Position numbers and translations under genes: made by a program. From NCBI RefSeq assembly GCF_023822045.1, contig NZ_CP084712.1, forward strand, positions 3,717,001 to 3,781,000: a stretch of 64,000 bases of DNA, read 5' to 3'. How positions within the stretch are numbered: the first letter of the stretch is position 1; each line of letters starts with the position of its first letter. Positions 27,579-37,375 of the stretch are shown here, piece after piece. The notes under the pieces were generated by a model. The model worked only from the letters and a program-made list of their open reading frames with translations, was not told where the DNA came from and did not search any database. The stretch is from Sphingopyxis sp. USTB-05. GTDB taxonomy: Bacteria > Pseudomonadota > Alphaproteobacteria > Sphingomonadales > Sphingomonadaceae.

Positions 27579-30500
27579 CTAGTTCGCGTAGAGCAACGGC
27601 GGTCGCCAGGAATTCTGGTCGACTTCGTCGCGGACCTTGTAGACGATCCCGCGGCTGTTGAGGAACAGCTTCTCCATTTCGGGCCGCGTGAAGGGGCGTG
27701 AGCCGAGGCGGCCGAACACCGCCATCTGCCCGCCGGTCTCGTCAACCGCGCGGTCGCGGTCGAGGCCCTTCGACAGCGCCAGCGCCGGCGACGGGGTCTT
27801 CGCCCATGCGATCAGCTCGGGTGTCGGTTTGGGTGAGAAGCCATAGAGGCCGGGATTGTCGGGGCTGGTGAGCTGCAGCACCTTGATGCCGTTCCGCCCG
27901 TCGGCGACATAGCCGAACAGCGACGCATTGGTCGATGCGACGATCACATCCTCGGCATCGGTCAGCGCGCCGCCAAAGGTCAAGCCCGGCCAGACGACCG
28001 GCGCCGCGGGGCGCGTGACGTCGACGATGACGAGCCCGTCCTGCTTCGCCGCGACATACATATAGGTGCGCGCGAGATAGATTTTGCGCGCATTCGCAAG
28101 GCGTATCGTGCCCGCGGGCACCGCGACGGGCTGTGCCAGATTGGTGACGTCGAACAGCTTCACCCCCTCGGCGTCGGTGACCCAGAGATAGCGGAACTGC
28201 ACCGCGCTCGCGCGCGCGTCGGTCAGCGGCAATTGCGCGGTGACCTTCGGCTGGAGCGGCGTCGACAGGTCGAGCACGACGAGCCCGGCGTCGGTGGTGA
28301 TATAGGCCATGCTGCCCGCCAGCGTCACATGCCGCGCGCCGGCGAGCACATTGCCCTCGTTCCAGGTCAGCGCGCGCTTGAACTTGTTGTTGCGGAACTC
28401 GGCGTCGGCGAGCGTGTCGATGTCGACGAGCACGAGCCCTTCGATGCTGTCGGTGATGACGGCATAGCGATAGATGTCGTGCATCACCTGTTCGTGGTTC
28501 TCGGGGAAATTCTTCACGATATTCTCGTTGCGCGAGACGCTGATCGGCTGCGTCGTCGCAATCGCCATGCACGTCGCATTCTTCGTCTTCACATGCGTAT
28601 TCTGGCCGAGCGGCGAGAAGGGCGCGCGGATGATGCGTTCGGAGAAGCCCTTGTTGCCGATCGACGCAATGTCATAGACGCGGAACCCGCCCCTGCCTTC
28701 CGCTACGAACATATATTCGCCGCGCTGCTGCAGGCAGTTCACCCGGCCGCTCGTGCCCTGAACGATATTGGCGAATTCCTCGAGCGCGTGTGTTTCGCCC
28801 GAACCATCCTTGTCGAACGTCTTGCCGCGCACCCAGTTTTTGAGCTCGCGTCCATTCTGTTCGACGTGCAGCTTCCAATAATCGGGATAGGCATATTTCT
28901 GGAGATAGGAGCCGATCACCGCCTGCGGCTCGTCCCATTCGGTGACGCGCGTGGCCTGGAAACCGCCTTCCATCCCCGACCACACGTTGAGCCCGACGAA
29001 GTTGACGAAATTGGTGCCGAGCAAATTGAGCTGCGCCATGATCGCATTATTGTCGTCGGCCGCCGACAAATGGCAGTCGGAGCATTGCTTCGTTTCCGAA
29101 CGCCGCACCGTATGCGGGAAGTGCGGCGCGAATGCCTGGCTGGAATAGCCCGCCGACGAGATCGGCGGCTGCTGGATATAGATGCGTTCGCGGTTGATGT
29201 TCGTCGATGACAGGACGAGCGCCGAGGTCGACCGCACCGGGGTGATGATACCGCGCGCTTCGCCGTTCGGGCCGGGCTCGCCGGGCTTGGTCAGCTGATG
29301 GCGGCCGAGCTGGAACATTTCATCACGCGCCACCTGCGGGTTGTAAGTCGCGAAATTGCGCGTCTCCTCGCCCTCGAAATGGTGCATCTTGGTTTTCCAG
29401 TTCGCCTCGATGGGCAAATGGCAACCGCCGCAACTCGTCGTCCATGACAGGTGGCAGGTGAAGCAGGTCATCTTATCTTCGCCGTGCGCGCGATCTTCCT
29501 TCGCGACCCCCGGACCCCATTCGAACTTGCCGTCGTCGGCCCCCGCGCGTGCCATCAATTTGGCGCGCGCCGCCTTGGCGTTGAAATGTGGCCCCGGCGT
29601 CACCGCCTGCTTGACGAGGCTGACCTGCCATTCGAGCTTGGGATCGACGATCGATCGCTGGATCAGCCCGATCACCTCGGCATCGTCATTATATTGGAAT
29701 TCGAAGCGGCGGCGCCCATCGGGGTTGCGCAGCAGCGCCAGATTATTTCCCTGCGGCCGCGCCGCGACGTTCGAGGTGAGCAGGTTCGGGAAAGCGTCGG
29801 CGGTGCCGTGGCAATCCTTGCAGCTGATCTCGACCGCATTCGCGACTTCGCCCTGGATATAGCCATTGCCATGGCTATCCTGCGCGAAGTGACAATCGGC
29901 GCACTGCATCCCCTTTTCGGCGTGGATGTCCATCATATGGACCGCCTTGCCGGGGTTCAGCCCCGGCGGAACGAACTTGCCCTCGACGCCGGGACGGCCC
30001 GGGTCGGCGCTCGACAGGCAGAGGTCGCGTTCCTTGGGATCGCTGTAATGGCTGCAGCTCTTGCGCCACTTTTCGGGGTCCTTCGGATCGATGATGTTCG
30101 CGGTGTCGGTGCCATAGGTCGACATATTGCCGTCGGCAGTCAGCAGATTTCCGTTGCGGTCGCGCTTGAAGATGCCGCGGAAGTTCCAGCCATGGCCGTG
30201 ATAGTCGGCGAACTGCGTGTCCTTGTTGCTGTCGTTGACGTCATAGACGTCGCGCAGAAACTCGACATCGGCCCAAAGCCCGCGCGTCGCCGCGCCTTCG
30301 GGATTGCGTTCGAGCACCTTGTGGACTTCGGCCGCGGTCGGATAGCGCTGCTGCTTGTATTTCTTCTGATATTCCTCCTCGCTCATCCCCGGCGGGCGCG
30401 GCGCGGTGTTTTCCGGCCCCGGCCACATTTGCGGCGCGTCGGATTCATAGTCCCACATCGTGTAGCCGAGGTATGAGTTCAGGAAGATGTTCGGCTGGTG

Positions 30501-31922
30501 CATGTGGCAAGTCATGCACTGCGCGGTCGGGATCGCGCGCGTGAAAGTGTGGCTGATCGGATGGCCCGATTCCCGGCGTTGTTTCGGCGGTTGCTGTTGC
30601 GGCCCTGCGGCAGCCGCCACCGGATCGATCAGCGAACCATGTCCACCGTCGCTGCCATGGCCGTCGTTCGGCGCCATATGCGATGCGTCCGAATGGCCTC
30701 CGCCTGCGGGCTTTTTCTCGCCCCCATGGCCGTCATCATGGCCATCGCCGCCGGCCCGGAGCTTTTCGCGGATCGTTGGATCGACCGTGTCGGTCTCGCC
30801 GTCGCGGCCGAATTTGGCATAGGTCAGGCTGTGCCGCGGCTCGCGGTCGTTGGCATAGATGACGTGACAGCCCGAACAGCCCGAGTGGCGATAGTCGCCG
30901 GGCTGATCGTTCGTCCCCATGAACCACATCAAGGGATCGTTGAGGCGCGTCTTGTGGATGTTGAGGACGGGGATCGAGACGCGCAGGCCGGTGCCGGGTC
31001 CACGGTTCGACTGTTTGAGGTCGGGACGCCCCGGCTCCTCGAGCCGCTGGATGCTGCCGGTCGGGTTCGGCAGCCCGATTTCGGGGAATTGCGTGTTGAT
31101 GTTGCGCCCGCCGCGTTCGAACACGCGGAAAACGTCGCCGGGCGGAATGACGCTCCAGCGCGGCAGTGGGTACATTTTCGCGAGCGCGCCGCGCTTCTTT
31201 TCTTCGTCGGTCAGTATCTTGTCGAACCCGAAGCTCGGCTTGCACGCTTCCTTATATTCCTCCGCGGTCAGCCGCGACGAAGGCGACAGGACGCACGCGG
31301 GGGCGCCGGTGCGGGTATAGGCCTCACCGAACACATAATTCTTATACGGCACGATGCCGTTGTTATACGCCGCCCCGCCCCACAGCATCGCGCCGGTCGA
31401 CATCATCGACCGCTCGGTCGCCTCGATCACTTCGAGGTGGCACGAACCGCACGCCTCGCGCGCGACGCGATAGTCGCTGGGGTTCACGAAACGGATGAAT
31501 TCGGGCGATTCCTTGTTGAGCAATGTATAGCTGCGCTCGGGGTTCGCCGAGCTGTCGTGCCACGCGCCGGGCAGGGTCGGCTGCGGATGCGCGAGCTTCA
31601 TCACCGCCTTGTTCGTCGGATGCTGATAGCCGAGGCTGGGGGTGCCGCGCTGGGTCGCGTCGCCACCATGGCAGTCGGTGCAGCCAAGCCGGACGGCGGG
31701 GCTCGCGTGCATCGACGGTTGGTCGGTGCGCGTGTGGCAGCTGTAGCAGCCTTCCGATTTCTGGACGACCTCGGCTTCGCTCTGCTCGCGCGGCGCGGGC
31801 GGCGTGAAGCGATATTCAATCTTGAGCGGCTTTTCTTCCTCCGCGGCGCGGCCAACGCTCGCGCCAAAAGCGGCGCACATCGTCACGAAGGCGATCAGGG
31901 CGAAGAGTTTGCGCAGCATCAT
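27579..31922 (-). CDS. Decahaem c-type cytochrome fused to an LVIVD-type beta-propeller
   Basis: 1447 residues from ATG 31922, which follows GGGGGG. A signal peptide covers about residues 1-25. Ten CxxCH haem motifs lie near residues 59, 81, 158, 349, 469, 674, 701, 820, 831 and 947. A His/Gly/Asp-rich loop sits at about 393-430, between haems 4 and 5. From about 1040 to 1400 there are repeats such as YMFVAEGRGGFRVYDI, LVLVDIDTLADAEF, AYITTDAGLVVLDLSTP and MYVAAKQDGLVIVDVTRP, typical of LVIVD (PF08309) beta-propellers. The protein is exported, and haem attachment would use the Ccm system. It is the last gene of the cytochrome-barrel operon, so an electron-carrying terminal subunit, possibly at the cell surface, is inferred. 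Substrate unknown; an enzymatic role such as an oxidoreductase is an alternative. Confidence 0.92.
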   Translation of the reverse strand: MMLRKLFALIAFVTMCAAFGASVGRAAEEEKPLKIEYRFTPPAPREQSEAEVVQKSEGCYSCHTRTDQPSMHASPAVRLGCTDCHGGDATQRGTPSLGYQHPTNKAVMKLAHPQPTLPGAWHDSSANPERSYTLLNKESPEFIRFVNPSDYRVAREACGSCHLEVIEATERSMMSTGAMLWGGAAYNNGIVPYKNYVFGEAYTRTGAPACVLSPSSRLTAEEYKEACKPSFGFDKILTDEEKKRGALAKMYPLPRWSVIPPGDVFRVFERGGRNINTQFPEIGLPNPTGSIQRLEEPGRPDLKQSNRGPGTGLRVSIPVLNIHKTRLNDPLMWFMGTNDQPGDYRHSGCSGCHVIYANDREPRHSLTYAKFGRDGETDTVDPTIREKLRAGGDGHDDGHGGEKKPAGGGHSDASHMAPNDGHGSDGGHGSLIDPVAAAAGPQQQPPKQRRESGHPISHTFTRAIPTAQCMTCHMHQPNIFLNSYLGYTMWDYESDAPQMWPGPENTAPRPPGMSEEEYQKKYKQQRYPTAAEVHKVLERNPEGAATRGLWADVEFLRDVYDVNDSNKDTQFADYHGHGWNFRGIFKRDRNGNLLTADGNMSTYGTDTANIIDPKDPEKWRKSCSHYSDPKERDLCLSSADPGRPGVEGKFVPPGLNPGKAVHMMDIHAEKGMQCADCHFAQDSHGNGYIQGEVANAVEISCKDCHGTADAFPNLLTSNVAARPQGNNLALLRNPDGRRRFEFQYNDDAEVIGLIQRSIVDPKLEWQVSLVKQAVTPGPHFNAKAARAKLMARAGADDGKFEWGPGVAKEDRAHGEDKMTCFTCHLSWTTSCGGCHLPIEANWKTKMHHFEGEETRNFATYNPQVARDEMFQLGRHQLTKPGEPGPNGEARGIITPVRSTSALVLSSTNINRERIYIQQPPISSAGYSSQAFAPHFPHTVRRSETKQCSDCHLSAADDNNAIMAQLNLLGTNFVNFVGLNVWSGMEGGFQATRVTEWDEPQAVIGSYLQKYAYPDYWKLHVEQNGRELKNWVRGKTFDKDGSGETHALEEFANIVQGTSGRVNCLQQRGEYMFVAEGRGGFRVYDIASIGNKGFSERIIRAPFSPLGQNTHVKTKNATCMAIATTQPISVSRNENIVKNFPENHEQVMHDIYRYAVITDSIEGLVLVDIDTLADAEFRNNKFKRALTWNEGNVLAGARHVTLAGSMAYITTDAGLVVLDLSTPLQPKVTAQLPLTDARASAVQFRYLWVTDAEGVKLFDVTNLAQPVAVPAGTIRLANARKIYLARTYMYVAAKQDGLVIVDVTRPAAPVVWPGLTFGGALTDAEDVIVASTNASLFGYVADGRNGIKVLQLTSPDNPGLYGFSPKPTPELIAWAKTPSPALALSKGLDRDRAVDETGGQMAVFGRLGSRPFTRPEMEKLFLNSRGIVYKVRDEVDQNSWRPPLLYAN

Positions 31923-31935
31923 TTGCCCCCCATCC

Positions 31936-32013
31936 CGTTCGCATCGAGCGAAGTCGAGATGCCGTGAGAGCACGCGCTTCGGATGGGCGTCTCGACTTCG
32001 CTCGACGCAAACG
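31936..32013. repeat. REP-like palindrome inside the cytochrome operon
   Basis: The 28-base arms 31936-31963 and 31986-32013, both containing the TCGACTTCGCTCGA core or its complement, are imperfect reverse complements around a 22-base spacer. They form a strong hairpin between the barrel and decahaem genes, ending about 14 bases before the latter's start. It resembles dispersed sphingomonad palindromes. It may lower read-through or set the ratio of the large cytochrome to the upstream subunits. Confidence 0.8.
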
Positions 32014-32034
32014 GATGAGAGAAGAACAGCGCCA

Positions 32035-33966
32035 TCAGAAACTCACGATCACATTGGCGAGGACGGAGACATAGGCGTCATTCTTTTTCTTGTTGTCGAA
32101 CAGATCCTTGAACCCCTTGCCCGGCACCAGCACCGCGGCGCTGAGGCGACCGACGATATTCTGCGTCGCCTTGGGCCGCCAGATCGTCGCGACCGACAGG
32201 TCAAAGCCGATGTCCTTGGGGATCGATCCCTCGGTGCGCAGCGCCTGCAGCGACGACGTGTTTTCGAACCACAGATGGTTGAAATTGGTGCTCACGCGAA
32301 ATTCGGGGGTCAGGTCGAAATCGGCGCCCGCGCCGATGAATACCGTGCCCGGATTGTTGAAGTTCGACTGCCCCTCTTCCTTCGATGAGCGCAGCGAGTT
32401 CAATATGCCGTTGCGCCCACTGATCGAAATGACGCGGCCGCCGCCCGCAAAGGGGATCGTCTGGCGGATCCAGTAGCTCGTATCGGCGCCGCCGAAGATC
32501 GGATTTTCGAAGATCGCGTCGAAACCGCCCTCGGTCTTGTTATACGGATTGCCGTCACCGGTCGCATAGAGCCCCGACAGGCGGAAGCGCATCCAGTCAT
32601 GGTCGTAGCTGAGCTCGACCGCACCGAAGCCCGCACGGATTTCGGCGGGCTTGCTGGTGAAAAAGCTGTTCCGGTCCTCGCCGAGCGCGGCATAGAAGCT
32701 GGCGGTGACGTTGATCCGCCCGATCCGACCATCGGCGCTGTAACCCAGATAGGCGACGTCATATTCGCGCCCGCGCAAATCGCCGAGCAGCGCCGGGCGC
32801 ACCGGAAAGCCATTATGGTCGATCTGAACGTCATTTTTTTCGCGGTTCATATTATAGGTCACGCTGACCTGGCTGGTCAGCCCGACGACCGGGAAATCTT
32901 GGCGATAGAGATTGGCGGTGAGGACGAAATCGCTGCGCGGTGACTGGGTGATATCGTTGAGGCCGCTGTTGGTGTCTTTTTCGAGCCGCCAGAAGGCCGC
33001 AAGATTATATTGGAAGCGATTGTTGTCGCGGTTGCCGAACAGGCGGATGCCGAGCTGGCTGTCGTTGAACAGAAAGCCGCGGAAATCGCTCTGGAACGGC
33101 TGGATGCCGAGGCGGATCGAATAAAAGTCGAAGCGGTCGGACGTGTTGCCGAGATGCTTGTCGACGAACAATTCCTGCACCCCAAGGAAACTGTCGTAAC
33201 GATGGCTCGCCTTTGACGGGCGCACGTCGAGAACGCGCCGTTCGGGCACGTCGACATAATTGGCCTGATAGGCGAAGGTGGCGCGATATTCGATGTCGGG
33301 CGGCTTGAATGCCGTCGAACCCTTGATCAGCGCGGCCCCGACGATGAACGTCTGCGCAAAGACGAAGCTGCGATCCTTGCCGAACACGTCAAGGCTACCC
33401 GGTCGCTCGGTCGTCTGGACGCCGACGGGAATCGGAAAAGTGCGCGGTTCGAACACCGTGTCGGACACCGCATTGCCGACGAAGAACCAGTCGTCGCCCT
33501 TGATCGGCAGCCATTTGACCTTGCTGCGGTCGATCGCGCGGTCGCCCTTATAGGTGTTCTGATGATAGGGATCGAACCAGCGTTCCTTGACGACGCCCAG
33601 CGTTTCGATGAGGCGCCAGCGATCGGGAAGCGGCAGCTGATCCTCCATCCCCGGAAACGCCTGCGGCGGCGGCGGGCGCAATGCGCCGACATTGTCCTGC
33701 GTCAGCGCATCGGGCAGGTCCGGGCGATAGCCAGGACGGCGGCGGCCTTCGATGATGTCGGTGACAAGGTCGTCCTTGACCATCTCCTGCCAGTCGACGG
33801 GCGGCGGCGGCGGAGTCAGTTCTTCGGCCTGCTGTTCGGCCGGCGCTGCATCGCCCAGGACCGGCGGCCCCTCAGGCGTAGGAGGCGGCGGCAACGCCTC
33901 CGCTCCCGGCGCGCCCTGCGCCGCGAGTGTCGCGATGACCGGCCAAAGGCTGCCGCCCGTCATCAT
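32035..33966 (-). CDS. Outer-membrane beta-barrel protein of the cytochrome operon
   Basis: 643 residues. A short N-terminal export-like segment (SLWPVIATLAAQGAPGAEA) is followed by a proline-rich linker (about 25-55) and then alternating amphipathic strands rich in Tyr, Phe, Asn and Asp (for example YRATFAYQANYVDVPE, FQYNLAAFWRLEKD, VSVTYNMNREKND, MRFRLSGLYATGDG). It ends in VSVLANVIVSF, the terminal-Phe signature read by the BAM complex. It was not recognised as MtrB, PioB or a DUF1302 porin and has no CXXC. Only 3 bases separate it from the upstream lipoprotein stop. A pore holding or contacting the multihaem cytochromes is inferred from context; a stand-alone porin is possible. Confidence 0.82.
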   Translation of the reverse strand: MMTGGSLWPVIATLAAQGAPGAEALPPPPTPEGPPVLGDAAPAEQQAEELTPPPPPVDWQEMVKDDLVTDIIEGRRRPGYRPDLPDALTQDNVGALRPPPPQAFPGMEDQLPLPDRWRLIETLGVVKERWFDPYHQNTYKGDRAIDRSKVKWLPIKGDDWFFVGNAVSDTVFEPRTFPIPVGVQTTERPGSLDVFGKDRSFVFAQTFIVGAALIKGSTAFKPPDIEYRATFAYQANYVDVPERRVLDVRPSKASHRYDSFLGVQELFVDKHLGNTSDRFDFYSIRLGIQPFQSDFRGFLFNDSQLGIRLFGNRDNNRFQYNLAAFWRLEKDTNSGLNDITQSPRSDFVLTANLYRQDFPVVGLTSQVSVTYNMNREKNDVQIDHNGFPVRPALLGDLRGREYDVAYLGYSADGRIGRINVTASFYAALGEDRNSFFTSKPAEIRAGFGAVELSYDHDWMRFRLSGLYATGDGNPYNKTEGGFDAIFENPIFGGADTSYWIRQTIPFAGGGRVISISGRNGILNSLRSSKEEGQSNFNNPGTVFIGAGADFDLTPEFRVSTNFNHLWFENTSSLQALRTEGSIPKDIGFDLSVATIWRPKATQNIVGRLSAAVLVPGKGFKDLFDNKKKNDAYVSVLANVIVSF

Positions 33967-33969
33967 CGC

Positions 33970-35943
33970 CTATAGCCCGTCACAGACATTCTGGTTCGCC
34001 GTGTCGAGGAACGGCGCGAACGGGCAGCTGATATAGCGGAGGCGAACCCCGGCGCCGACATTGACCACGACGTTGTCCGACCGGATCGCCTTGGGCGCAT
34101 TGCCGATGCCGCCGATGCGCGCACCGCCATTATGCGCGCCGAGGAAGCTGATCATATCATCCTGATCGATGCCGTCGCCCGACACGCCGATCGCGCCGAC
34201 CAGTTGATTGCCGCGATAGATGGGGACCGATCCCGGAAAGATCTGGATGCCGTTTTGCAGCCGGTTCTGCCCCGCCGCGACATCGGGCAGGGTCGTGCAG
34301 CGCGCGGGGGTATCGGTCGGGCTGGCGCCCGACACAAAGCCCAGATGCGCGCCGAGATTGCCGATGATCAGCGCCGATTGCAGCCCGGTCGAGAAGGGAT
34401 TGAACTGCGCGATCGGGCGCGACAGCGGCCCTTGCGGACGGCCGACCTCGCCATCGGGGAAATAGGGGCGCGCCAGATTGCCGACCGCGCGATCGGCATA
34501 AGCGACATTGCCGGTGAGCGCTACCGGACTGTTCAGGAAGGTCCGCGTCGCGGTGACGAACTGGCTGACGTCGGCGCTGGCATTGGCGCTGAGCTCGGCG
34601 CCTGCCTGTGCGTTCGAGAAGAAGGCCGCCGTGCGCGCCTTTTGCAGACTGACATCGGTGCCGAAGATCGGCGCGTCGGGCGAACGCACGATGCCCAGCA
34701 CCGATCCGTGCGTGTCGACGATGCTGATCGTCACCTGCGCGCGGCTGTCGAGCGGGCGGCGGATCTGCGCGCGGGCGCGGCTCATCACCGCAAAGGCTTC
34801 CTCGAGCACCGCGCGCGCCTCGGCCTGCGTCAGCGGCGCGCTGTTCGTCGCGCCGTCGGTGCCCGCGCGCAGCGGATAGCGGTTGGTGCCGCTGCCGTCG
34901 GTGAGGACAAAGGCGTCGCGGTTCGAAAATTCGGCGGCGGTCGAGGCACGGATGCCCGAGGCTTCGCTGCCATAGGTGATCCCCGCGGTCACCGCGGCAT
35001 TGGCATAGCCGATCACCGCAACCAGATTGCCTGCAACGCCGTTGAGGCTCGCAAAGCTGGCGCTGCCGCTGCTCATCACTCCGGCAAAGGTCGCGTCGGA
35101 GAAGCGCAGCGACGTGCCGTCGACGGTGATCTTGTCGGCGGTGATCGTGCTGGGCGCCTCGAACCCGCGGGTGCCTGCGAGCGCGATAAATTCTTCGGGA
35201 TCATTGTCGATGTTGAGGATGTTGGAATCGCTGCCGTAAATCCCGTCGCCCATCACCCCGACGCCGCCGACGAGCACGCCATTTTTATAGAGCGGCAGTC
35301 CGCCCGGATCGGCAGCAAGGCCGAGCGGTGAGCGTTTCGGACCGATCAGCGCGGCGTTGCCCGCCGCCCCGAAGCGCGCCGACAGGTCGCTGCACGGGAG
35401 TTGACTGAACTGCACCCCGAACAAGGGTCCGCTTTCGAGGCCGACGGTCGTGGGAGCAGGCGGAAAATGTTCCTGGACGATCTGGCTCGCCGTGCGGGTC
35501 GAGAAGGCATTGCCGCCGCTCGACAGATAGGCGCCGGTCACGGCTTTCGCGATCGCGCCGCCCTCGGCGGGAAAGGTCACATTTTGCGCGTCGATATTCA
35601 CGCCATTGGGAGCGGGCGCGGTCGTCGCGGTCGCGCGCGCTCCATTCATGCGAAACACGCCAAGCACATTGCCGACGCGATCGGTCACCGCAATCACCGA
35701 CGGCAGTCCGCGCGCCTGTGCCTCGGAAATCGCCTGCGCGAGCACGCGTTCGACGTCGGCCGTCGTCAATGCTTCGGCGGCGGGCGGCGTGTAGACCGTC
35801 GTCGGCGTGGGCGTCGGGGTGGGTGTCGGCGTCGGGGTCGGCGTGCCGCCGCCGCCTCCTCCGCCACCGCCGCAGGAGGTGAGGAGAAGCGCGCCCATCG
35901 CAGCGACGGCGGCCGAACGGAAGAGATGGGTCTTGCTTTGCAT
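33970..35943 (-). CDS. Lipoprotein with two GlcG/HbpS-like haem-binding domains
   Basis: 657 residues. The lipobox LLTSC places the acylated cysteine at residue 24; a run of nine Gly and a Thr-Pro repeat tether (about 25-50) follow. Two related domains of the GlcG/HbpS/DUF336 kind come next: the first opens with LTTADVERVLAQAISEAQARGLPSVIAVTD, split here as LTTADVERVLAQAISEA plus SVIAVTDRVGNVLGVFRM; the second with LTQAEARAVLEEAF plus VTISIVDTHGSVLGIVR. Each contains a GGVGVMGDGI-like or GAIGVSGDGI turn. HbpS relatives bind haem or degrade it in oligomers. The start at 35943 is chosen for the signal peptide; the longer frame lacks one. It lies 4 bp after the c554-like gene. Envelope-anchored haem or electron handling is inferred. 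Confidence 0.85.
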   Translation of the reverse strand: MQSKTHLFRSAAVAAMGALLLTSCGGGGGGGGGTPTPTPTPTPTPTPTTVYTPPAAEALTTADVERVLAQAISEAQARGLPSVIAVTDRVGNVLGVFRMNGARATATTAPAPNGVNIDAQNVTFPAEGGAIAKAVTGAYLSSGGNAFSTRTASQIVQEHFPPAPTTVGLESGPLFGVQFSQLPCSDLSARFGAAGNAALIGPKRSPLGLAADPGGLPLYKNGVLVGGVGVMGDGIYGSDSNILNIDNDPEEFIALAGTRGFEAPSTITADKITVDGTSLRFSDATFAGVMSSGSASFASLNGVAGNLVAVIGYANAAVTAGITYGSEASGIRASTAAEFSNRDAFVLTDGSGTNRYPLRAGTDGATNSAPLTQAEARAVLEEAFAVMSRARAQIRRPLDSRAQVTISIVDTHGSVLGIVRSPDAPIFGTDVSLQKARTAAFFSNAQAGAELSANASADVSQFVTATRTFLNSPVALTGNVAYADRAVGNLARPYFPDGEVGRPQGPLSRPIAQFNPFSTGLQSALIIGNLGAHLGFVSGASPTDTPARCTTLPDVAAGQNRLQNGIQIFPGSVPIYRGNQLVGAIGVSGDGIDQDDMISFLGAHNGGARIGGIGNAPKAIRSDNVVVNVGAGVRLRYISCPFAPFLDTANQNVCDGL

Positions 35944-35947
35944 GATC

Positions 35948-37375
35948 TTATCGCAGCGCCCGGATCGCGCTGACCGCGCTGCCAAATGACGCCTGAAATT
36001 CGGTCGGCTTATAGGCATTAGGGTCCTTCACCGCGGCATAGGCGCGGTCGATATCGCCGCGAATGCCCGCCGCCGCACCGACGGTGACACGCCCCGACGA
36101 CACCATGGCGTTGAGCAAAGTATCGACGCCCATCACCGCCTGCTGCGACCCCGAATAATCGGTGTATCGATCGTTGATCGCCTTCGCCGAAATCGCATCG
36201 ACCATCGCAAAGGCGTCGGCGCCCGAGAAGCTCCGCGACGCAAAGGCGCTTTTGAGCGAAGCGACCGTCTGCGACAGCTGCGCCGCCGCCGCGACCGCGC
36301 TGGCCCGGTCGGTCGCCATCGCCTTGTGGAACGCCGCGGTGCGCACCGCGAGTTGATCGGCAAGCGCCGGCGCCGCGAGCCGCGCCGCGGCGGCGAGCAT
36401 GATCAGATTCTCGTCATTATAGGGCGGCATCCCTTCGGGGATCGAGCGCCCGGGGTTGTTCACGCTGGTCTTGACCGGCTTCGCCTGATCGAAAATGCGG
36501 CGGTGGCAGCTATGGCAATCGAGGAAGTAGAATTCGGGGAACATCCCCTCGGTCCCGCGCTTCGTCTGGAACAGCGCCAGGCTGCGTTCGAGCGCGGTTG
36601 CCTGTCCGACCGCCCACATCTGGACATGATCGGTGCGCCGGTTCGCTGCCCCGAATTTGCGCCAGCCATAATCCGCATCTTCCTGATGATGCGCCTGGAG
36701 CGACGAGAAAAGATCGAGTTCGAACGCGATGCGCGGATGCCCAGCCGCCATGATGCGGTGGGTGACGAACTGGCCGTCCGCGGCCGAACCGAAGTGGCAA
36801 TCAACGCAGACGCCTGCGCGCACGACCGGGTCCTCGAGCTTCTTCAAACCAGCCGACAGGTTCGCAAGATGCTTGTCGCGCATTTCGCGGTCGGGATCGG
36901 CGTTGGTTCCGACCCCCGCATAATGGCTGGCGAGCCATCCGCCCGCCGGGCCATGGCAGGATTCGCACCCGACGCCATCCTCGGCCGGGACGGCGCGCGC
37001 GACGCCCGCCGTGCTGTGGCAACCGAGGCACATTTGCGCCTTCGCCGGGTCGCCGATGCCGAGGTTGCGCGCAATGAACTGGCTACGATTATTGCTCAGC
37101 ACCGCCCAAGCGCGGCTGTGCGCGCCACCGGCGGTCGAGGGTTCCTGCCATTTCATCAGCTCGTCCTGGCGAACGACGGTGCCGTCGCCTTCCATCCGGC
37201 CGTGACAGGTCGAGCCCGCGCAGGAGGCAACGCCGGTATAGCGCGCACCGCTTTCGCCCTGCGATTGCGCGGGGGGTGCGAACACGAACGCCGCGATGGC
37301 GAGCAACATCAAGCCCAAGGCGGCAAAAGCCGCCCAAGCCCGATCGCCGCGCTCCTTCCCAGCGTGCGTGGTCAT
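35948..37375 (-). CDS. Multihaem cytochrome c, c554-like (five haem motifs)
   Basis: 475 residues with one N-terminal hydrophobic segment (about 13-36) that is either a signal peptide or an inner-membrane anchor. Four CxxCH motifs lie at about 116, 137, 190 and 287. The first haem site is unusual, CAGSTCH at 52-58 (CX4CH). The half up to residue 290 resembles the cytochrome c554 family (PF13435), whose members pass electrons between periplasmic partners. The remaining ~180 residues are helical and Ala-rich, with no haem motif. It is the first gene of the four-gene operon, 50 bp downstream of glutamate dehydrogenase. Its role as the periplasmic electron entry point is inferred. Confidence 0.9.
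   Translation of the reverse strand: MTTHAGKERGDRAWAAFAALGLMLLAIAAFVFAPPAQSQGESGARYTGVASCAGSTCHGRMEGDGTVVRQDELMKWQEPSTAGGAHSRAWAVLSNNRSQFIARNLGIGDPAKAQMCLGCHSTAGVARAVPAEDGVGCESCHGPAGGWLASHYAGVGTNADPDREMRDKHLANLSAGLKKLEDPVVRAGVCVDCHFGSAADGQFVTHRIMAAGHPRIAFELDLFSSLQAHHQEDADYGWRKFGAANRRTDHVQMWAVGQATALERSLALFQTKRGTEGMFPEFYFLDCHSCHRRIFDQAKPVKTSVNNPGRSIPEGMPPYNDENLIMLAAAARLAAPALADQLAVRTAAFHKAMATDRASAVAAAAQLSQTVASLKSAFASRSFSGADAFAMVDAISAKAINDRYTDYSGSQQAVMGVDTLLNAMVSSGRVTVGAAAGIRGDIDRAYAAVKDPNAYKPTEFQASFGSAVSAIRALR

Follow-up and report, generated by a model that had tools for sequence, protein, structure and literature searches.

A conserved four-gene operon for an outer-membrane barrel and multihaem cytochromes in Sphingopyxis sp. 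USTB-05: candidate outer half of a PCC4-related electron conduit

The stretch of DNA analysed here (the window) comprises 64,000 nucleotides of Sphingopyxis sp. USTB-05 (contig NZ_CP084712.1, positions 3,717,001 to 3,781,000) and contains a group of four genes, A, B, C and D, which span 37375-27579 and all lie on the minus strand. The existence of these genes was confirmed, as was their close packing as described in an earlier note on this sequence: gaps of 4 bp and 3 bp separate A from B and B from C, the latter two being in one frame and parted by TAG GCG, while a 112-bp gap with a palindromic element separates C from D. The four genes are as follows.

35948..37375, minus strand: gene A, c554-like pentahaem cytochrome of 475 aa, with a hydrophobic N-terminal segment at residues 15-33
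33970..35943, minus strand: gene B, HbpS-like tandem protein of 657 aa, lipoprotein-like in sphingomonads
32035..33966, minus strand: gene C, predicted 18-strand outer-membrane barrel of 643 aa with a C-terminal Phe
27579..31922, minus strand: gene D, decahaem cytochrome of 1447 aa with a Sec-type signal peptide and a C-terminal LVIVD repeat region

The estimate of about 15 covalent haem sites in the earlier note agrees with the 5 sites of A and the 10 of D. Gene A (Pfam match PF13435, E 6.5e-10) has four CXXCH motifs and one CX4CH motif (CAGSTCH), and the CX4CH motif together with at least four CXXCH motifs is present in all 32 aligned gene A sequences, the window's own among them. The 10 CXXCH motifs of D are found in all 47 of its clustered relatives, which also share many invariant His residues; the LVIVD region matches PF08309 (E 6.9e-12). 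After 2000 residue shuffles at most one CXXCH remained in either protein, versus 4 observed in A and 10 in D. At the level of the whole genome the CXXCH pattern in DNA was uninformative (248 matches versus 158 in a reversed control). The start of gene D is most likely the ATG at 31922, which yields a signal-peptide-like MMLRKLFALIAF..., rather than the GTG at 31973, and for gene B the ATG at 35943 is most likely the start rather than position 36018 given by the open reading frame (ORF) finder.

Gene B matches the HbpS-like family PF03928 in three stretches (85.6 bits, cut-off 25, E 3.6e-24), and by family it may bind haem. Its two halves share 27% identity (E 2e-7 in a single comparison), and 150 alignment columns have at least 95% identity across 38 sequences, with that of the window counted in. 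With a lipobox-like LLTSC in B, judged by eye, and the end ...VSF of C, the description of a lipid-anchored, haem-binding-like protein next to a barrel with C-terminal Phe holds. In two homologues of B from distant alphaproteobacteria (L166 and L176) the signal peptide, again judged by eye, is apparently an ordinary one without lipobox, so that the lipid anchor may not be universal.

Gene C has no cysteines, and no match was found for it in Pfam and NCBIfam at E 0.1, nor in PHROGs. In the alignment of its family two majority cysteines are seen near an N-terminal RRRPG/LP segment, both absent from C of the window. An AlphaFold2 model, built with 73 sequences, has 18 long strands, and its best match among solved structures is AlgE, with OprD/Occ and chitoporin also matching; in the alignments with AlgE and OprD/Occ only 8-14% of the residues are identical. 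MtrB and other conduit barrels are not among the listed fold matches, which is no proof of absence. The possibility raised in the earlier note that C is a simple porin thus applies in part, as the modelled barrel is of the 18-strand AlgE/OprD type. In standard barrel geometry the C-alpha radius is about 16-18 A for 18 strands versus 23-26 A for 26, which implies that an MtrA-like rod is probably too wide for C, while a small haem domain might fit.

The four genes form a conserved unit. Genome contigs were scanned with C and the best 80 of 222 relatives were kept, those with informative names being from Sphingomonadales. All four genes were matched in the same order and strand at 66 of these 80 loci, and the remaining 14 are cut off by a contig end before the missing gene; the co-occurrence that the earlier note had asked for is therefore found wherever contigs are long enough. 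One of the 66 loci (L061) has partial best tblastn pieces for A, B and D, possibly owing to frameshifts or assembly errors. At the distant loci L161-L180, B, C and D stay together where called, and nine of the 20 stretches also have a called A. The neighbourhoods were called with a longest-ORF procedure, which occasionally lost real genes to an antisense ORF (D in L161, L174 and L178), so absences at those loci are not counted against the system.

Strong matches to gene D were found in 39 of 196 genomes of an order sample (a weak one in G086, 1.6e-8, was not counted), in 25 of 337 of a class sample (five matches at 1.2e-13 or weaker excluded) and in 11 of 398 of a phylum sample (11 weak matches excluded). 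Other alphaproteobacterial families also hold the operon, and the carriers in the phylum sample include a single gammaproteobacterium, G847; its C matches a protein of Colwellia echini with 100% identity over 99%. Between the window and Colwellia, A, B, C and D share 31%, 46%, 55% and 49% identity, respectively. The system is rare in the order of G847, where D and the FHA-cytochrome described below were each strong in 1 of 148 genomes, one genome for both (nine weak matches excluded for each). Public data contain at least 6,022 D-like and at least 7,401 C-like protein matches, and the system may accordingly be among the more widespread unnamed envelope electron systems. Sphingomonads, which as aerobes abound in soil and water, on roots and in drinking-water systems, are as a rule not counted among electroactive bacteria.

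A second operon, located outside the window, appears to complete the set. In many relatives, A to D are adjoined by genes for a protein of about 810 aa, a membrane protein of about 290 aa, a protein combining an FHA-like domain, a transmembrane segment and a decahaem cytochrome, and a metallophosphoesterase. This set is absent from the window, and was found elsewhere in the same genome.

G000:C1:637620-643774 (equal to L213:9620-15774), 3.1 Mb from the window operon: inner operon of four genes, encoding an 811-aa flavin adenine dinucleotide (FAD) protein, a di-haem b protein, an FHA-like decahaem cytochrome (FHA-cytochrome) and a phosphodiesterase-like protein
L213:12052-12936, within this operon: b protein, with W100/H104/H118, SGLYG and W268/H272/H286

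The 811-aa protein combines an NAD(P)/FAD domain, two cyclic-nucleotide-binding domains and four [4Fe-4S] Cys sets; its PF13247 part (39.4 bits, cut-off 26.2) is fused here to the FAD and cyclic-nucleotide domains. In all 10 sequences of this protein the 16 cluster Cys are kept and both cyclic-nucleotide domains have an [FV]GE...R motif. The end of its gene overlaps the next start by 4 bp (ATGA). Two WX3HX13H motifs are present in all 18 b proteins (250-340 aa), together with SGXXG in 16 and TGXXG in two. The FHA-cytochromes have 10 haem motifs in 30 of 30 sequences, plus 9 further invariant His; the FHA call itself is weak, with Pfam scores under the cut-off, and the match of the FHA-cytochrome to TIGR03508 (MtrA/DmsE family) is likewise far below the threshold (22.2 bits, cut-off 192.2). 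The phosphodiesterase-like protein of the window's genome matches PF00149, and its homologue in L182 matches NF050112 with 133 bits (cut-off 400).

The two operons co-occur. D, the FHA-cytochrome and the b protein were surveyed genome by genome in the order sample of 196: strong matches to all three came from the identical 39 genomes, and the remaining 157 had no strong match to any of them; weak matches were excluded (2.3e-4 in G145 for the FHA-cytochrome, 13 genomes at 1.5e-8 or weaker for the b protein). In each of five genera, carriers occur next to one or more non-carriers; this suggests, though without a tree, joint gain or loss on more than one occasion. In the class sample the FHA-cytochrome is strong in 30 of 337 genomes, among them all 25 carriers of D (four matches at 9.6e-22 or weaker excluded, that of G314, 9.6e-22, being a PCC4-like locus). 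Five of the 337 have a strong FHA-cytochrome without D; in one of these, G219, D is probably missing because the contig ends inside B (L248).

Physical linkage of the two halves varies. In the 39 genomes they are at most 10 kb apart in 20, 10-50 kb apart in two, more than 50 kb apart in seven and on different contigs in 10. Among the 80 loci, 64 have at least 4 kb to the right of D, and the FHA-cytochrome is found there in 22; none of these 22 is named Sphingopyxis, and of the seven carriers in that genus six have their halves unlinked or on separate contigs. The whole set is linked on plasmid pMSHV of Sphingobium herbicidovorans, where its genes are named by the Prokaryotic Genome Annotation Pipeline (PGAP), and both halves are linked in Colwellia echini as well.

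The inner operon provides a relationship to systems described before. PCC3 and PCC4 are hypothetical porin-cytochrome systems proposed by He et al. (2017, PMC5566968; here and below, as given in the portions of that paper drawn on), whose inner-membrane proteins have two WX3HX13H motifs and SGXXG, with two b haems proposed. The b protein of the window's genome has this PCC4 signature, and a PF13247 iron-sulphur component upstream of the inner-membrane protein, as in PCC4 subgroup II, is present here too (PMC5566968). PCC4 comprises a porin and three periplasmic multihaem cytochromes of 4, 5 and 10 haems, and is described in those portions without an extracellular multihaem cytochrome (PMC5566968), while the haem numbers here are 5 (A), 10 (FHA-cytochrome) and 10 (D).

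For comparison, loci were fetched whose relatives were weak or lacked D; L246 and L251 were taken as PCC4-like by their features, apart from the published sequences of He et al. At three loci, L245, L246 and L251, a porin of 526-538 aa is grouped with a 5-haem protein of 587-641 aa and with a cytochrome that is A-like or has 4 haems, and in L246 and L251 a b protein and an FHA-decahaem cytochrome were called beside this set. The b protein of the window's genome shares 41% identity with its counterpart in L251; alignment of the FHA-cytochromes gives E 2e-21. An A-like cytochrome is present in L245 and L246, gene A being 36% identical to that of L246. Between the profile of C and the porins of these loci no sequence kinship was seen (hhalign probability 0.7% for L246, 0.5% for L251), and the pair of 5-haem protein and 526-538-aa porin is absent from both operons described here, these two being the part of the genome that was searched for it. 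The C554-type 5-haem protein and porin of the PCC4-like loci are thus replaced by B, C and D, and the homology of the inner half and A, next to the unrelated C, suggests that the inner half and A are PCC4-like and that the outer half has been exchanged. Porin-cytochrome systems would then be divisible into outer modules and an interchangeable inner one, which PCC4-like clusters have in common with the system described here.

On this basis we propose, with moderate confidence, that A to D form the outer-membrane and periplasmic half of a PCC4-related trans-envelope electron conduit, with the separate four-gene operon as its inner half, so that eight genes can be named for one putative system. 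The conduit that the earlier note saw in the four genes alone would thus be an outer half only, although as a conserved unit they stand. The computed basis consists of the gene content, the conserved haem and ligand motifs, the co-occurrence of D, FHA-cytochrome and b protein, the PCC4-like homology of the inner half and A, and the 18-strand model; the order and direction of electron flow, the surface exposure of D and the control by cyclic nucleotides are what we infer in addition. The cytosolic NAD(P)H/FAD protein, with its four [4Fe-4S] sites and two cyclic-nucleotide-binding domains, would exchange electrons with the membrane protein carrying two b haems; this protein may also be in contact with the quinone pool. 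From there electrons could pass to the periplasmic decahaem cytochrome, anchored in the membrane and with its FHA-like domain in the cytosol, and then via pentahaem A to D, whose place would be at the outer membrane or across it, together with barrel C and the haem-binding-like lipoprotein B. Electrons could flow outwards, to reduce something outside the cell, or inwards, from an external donor that is oxidised.

The cyclic-nucleotide motifs, the phosphodiesterase-like gene and a CHASE2-adenylate/guanylate-cyclase gene, which lies within the stretch at 11 of 52 loci (one member was checked with Pfam), are hints that cyclic nucleotides may control the conduit. An unlikely but more specific version would be a cyclic-nucleotide-gated, pyridine-nucleotide-linked electron outlet of aerobes, running from NAD(P)H over FAD and four [4Fe-4S] clusters, the di-haem b protein and about 25 c haems to the AlgE-type barrel and the outside; if true, this would be an envelope wire switched by a second messenger.

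Several observations weigh against a conduit of this kind. The barrel is modelled as a substrate-porin or AlgE type, whose width probably does not admit an MtrA-like rod; apart from a Sec-type signal, D showed nothing that would anchor it at the surface, such as a lipobox, and its structure prediction was useless (predicted local distance difference test score, pLDDT, of 46). The FHA/b/FAD module also occurs in genomes without D (G246, G254, G299 and G450) and is therefore not specific to C and D. No conduit that we know of has a place for B, strictly linked though it is. The hosts are mostly known as aerobes, and no phenotype of extracellular electron transfer tied to these genes was found in open-licence texts of PubMed Central (PMC).

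An alternative is a reductase of the periplasm or outer membrane whose substrate is soluble (an oxyanion like selenite or tellurite, for instance), with all electrons staying in the cell. In that case C would be an ordinary porin for uptake, D would be the terminal reductase, supplied with electrons by A and the inner module, and B would assist by binding haem or some ligand. The listed fold matches of C (AlgE, OprD/Occ and chitoporin, with no conduit barrel among them) are in line with such roles, as are the common occurrence of the c554-type domain in soluble cytochromes and the distant resemblance of the haem core of D to ExtM, of an operon for selenite and tellurite reduction. The score with ExtM is far under its cut-off, however, and the inner-membrane protein carries the signature of the PCC systems; in addition, the 10 conserved haem motifs and many invariant His of D look wire-like, and type II secretion system (T2SS) or type IV pilus-type ATPase genes near the cluster at four of the 20 distant loci hint at secretion. 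We regard this explanation as rather unlikely. Far less probable still is that the two operons are separate systems that happen to share lineages or accessory replicons. They lie 3.1 Mb apart in the window's genome, and in relatives from Sphingobium the two are found on large secondary replicons, by which they could be moved jointly, but a mere tracking of lineages fits poorly with a pattern of 39 of 39 carriers versus none of 157 non-carriers and with the five mixed genera. That the halves are at most 10 kb apart in 20 of the 39 genomes, and linked again in Colwellia echini, argues against it too.

Within the proposed conduit, a direction of flow inwards, from Mn(II), Fe(II) or reduced humics to quinone or NAD(P)+, is possible but not what we would expect. 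It is a sub-case with the same anatomy, as hypothesised for PCC3 and PCC4, and would suit hosts that are, as is generally known, largely aerobes. In the model of the authors who proposed PCC3 and PCC4, electrons from an extracellular donor run inwards to the quinone pool, and their list includes an Erythrobacter with PCC3 that oxidises Mn(II) (PMC5566968, same portions). No sequence feature fixes the direction, and a pyridine-nucleotide/FAD subunit suits electron export or redox balancing at least equally well.

Other known systems differ more clearly. PCC3 shares the inner-membrane protein signature, but its cytochromes have a median of 34 and 21 haems and its porins up to 42 transmembrane regions (PMC5566968), compared to 5, 10 and 10 haems and 18 modelled strands here. 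PCC3-like clusters with 19-49 haems per cytochrome were observed in related genomes (L239-L242 and L249). Within a few kb of these lies a gene for a YpdA-like FAD oxidoreductase of 436-459 aa, homologous to the FAD part of the fused 811-aa protein, a further likeness to PCC3; the portions of the PCC3 description drawn on do not mention this enzyme (PMC5566968).

The MtrCAB, PioAB and MtoAB systems likewise combine a barrel and a decahaem cytochrome within one operon, but MtrB is a 26-strand barrel (PMC12133095, in the part of that paper drawn on), unlike the AlgE-like 18-strand barrel predicted here. Gene A scores 14.7 bits with the MtrA/DmsE family TIGR03508 (cut-off 192.2), and the observation of the earlier note that no part resembles MtrA, MtrB or MtrC was upheld, no such family match being above cut-off. 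A reading as MtrCAB was rejected on barrel size and on this lack of a family match. A plain role in HbpS-type haem uptake was also rejected, since the strictest partner of the operon is a redox inner module. From AlgE and OprD/Occ proteins C differs in that it adjoins cytochrome genes in the studied loci.

ExtM has local similarity to the haem core of D (70.9 bits), but this falls short of the 800-bit cut-off of NF040943, and D adds the LVIVD region and belongs to another operon. Other ExtM-like cytochromes, with 10-12 haems and 177-301 bits (cut-off 800), are encoded in L252:8208-10559, L253:9043-11424 and L250:2350-7463; they are distantly related to the haem core of D, and no relatives of B or C were called nearby.

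A recent report on the Sterkfontein ghost-rock metagenome (PMC13264449, 2026) describes, in the portions drawn on, a first group of 11 complexes in which a decahaem cytochrome gene of 4-5 kb lies beside a porin of about 20 strands, with a ferredoxin-NADP reductase nearby in seven of the 11. Compared by description, this group is probably the same C-D pair, perhaps also with the FAD protein (PMC13264449). Those portions contain no B, LVIVD domain or genome-wide co-occurrence, and the word stem "sphingo" is absent from the main text (PMC13264449). With this likely C-D pair as the exception, no description of the A-D operon or the eight-gene set was found in open-licence PMC texts. The suggestion of the earlier note that the conduit is undescribed therefore stands for the conserved barrel/multihaem unit in part: with the PCC3/PCC4 signature published for the inner half (PMC5566968) and the decahaem-porin group (PMC13264449), the system is not wholly undescribed.

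A neighbourhood resembling that of the window was observed on a 404-kb replicon typed as conjugative, pMC4 of Sphingopyxis indica (L226, NZ_CP076395.1), the shared part comprising a relA/spoT-type gene, A to D, gdhA and putA; a chromosomal block moved to a plasmid, or an assembly question, would explain this. Upstream of A in L225:1-10950, L078, L081 and L103 lies a set of genes for a CHASE2 protein, a small protein, an ShlB transporter and a giant protein, which looks like two-partner secretion.

The gap between C and D contains one further feature.

31925..32022 (approximate limits), no strand: palindromic element, with arms around TCTCGACTTCGCTCGA at 31944-31959 and 31990-32005

The element is about 100 bp long, and the two inverted copies of its 16-bp core TCTCGACTTCGCTCGA lie about 30 bp apart; two exact matches of the core are present here, against a chance mean of 0.12, and the predicted fold has -70.1 kcal/mol (z -5.3). 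The spacing of C and D is at most 15 bp in 39 of 43 measurable loci of the Sphingopyxis group. The core was also found in L213, L031, L040, L044, L075 and L081, making eight of 255 loci including two copies of the window's own place, with copies of the element at L213:4360-4421 and L040:11962-12023 and in L075. It may be a dispersed repeat of sphingomonads, similar to repetitive extragenic palindromic (REP) sequences or miniature inverted-repeat transposable elements (MITE), that was inserted into the operon.

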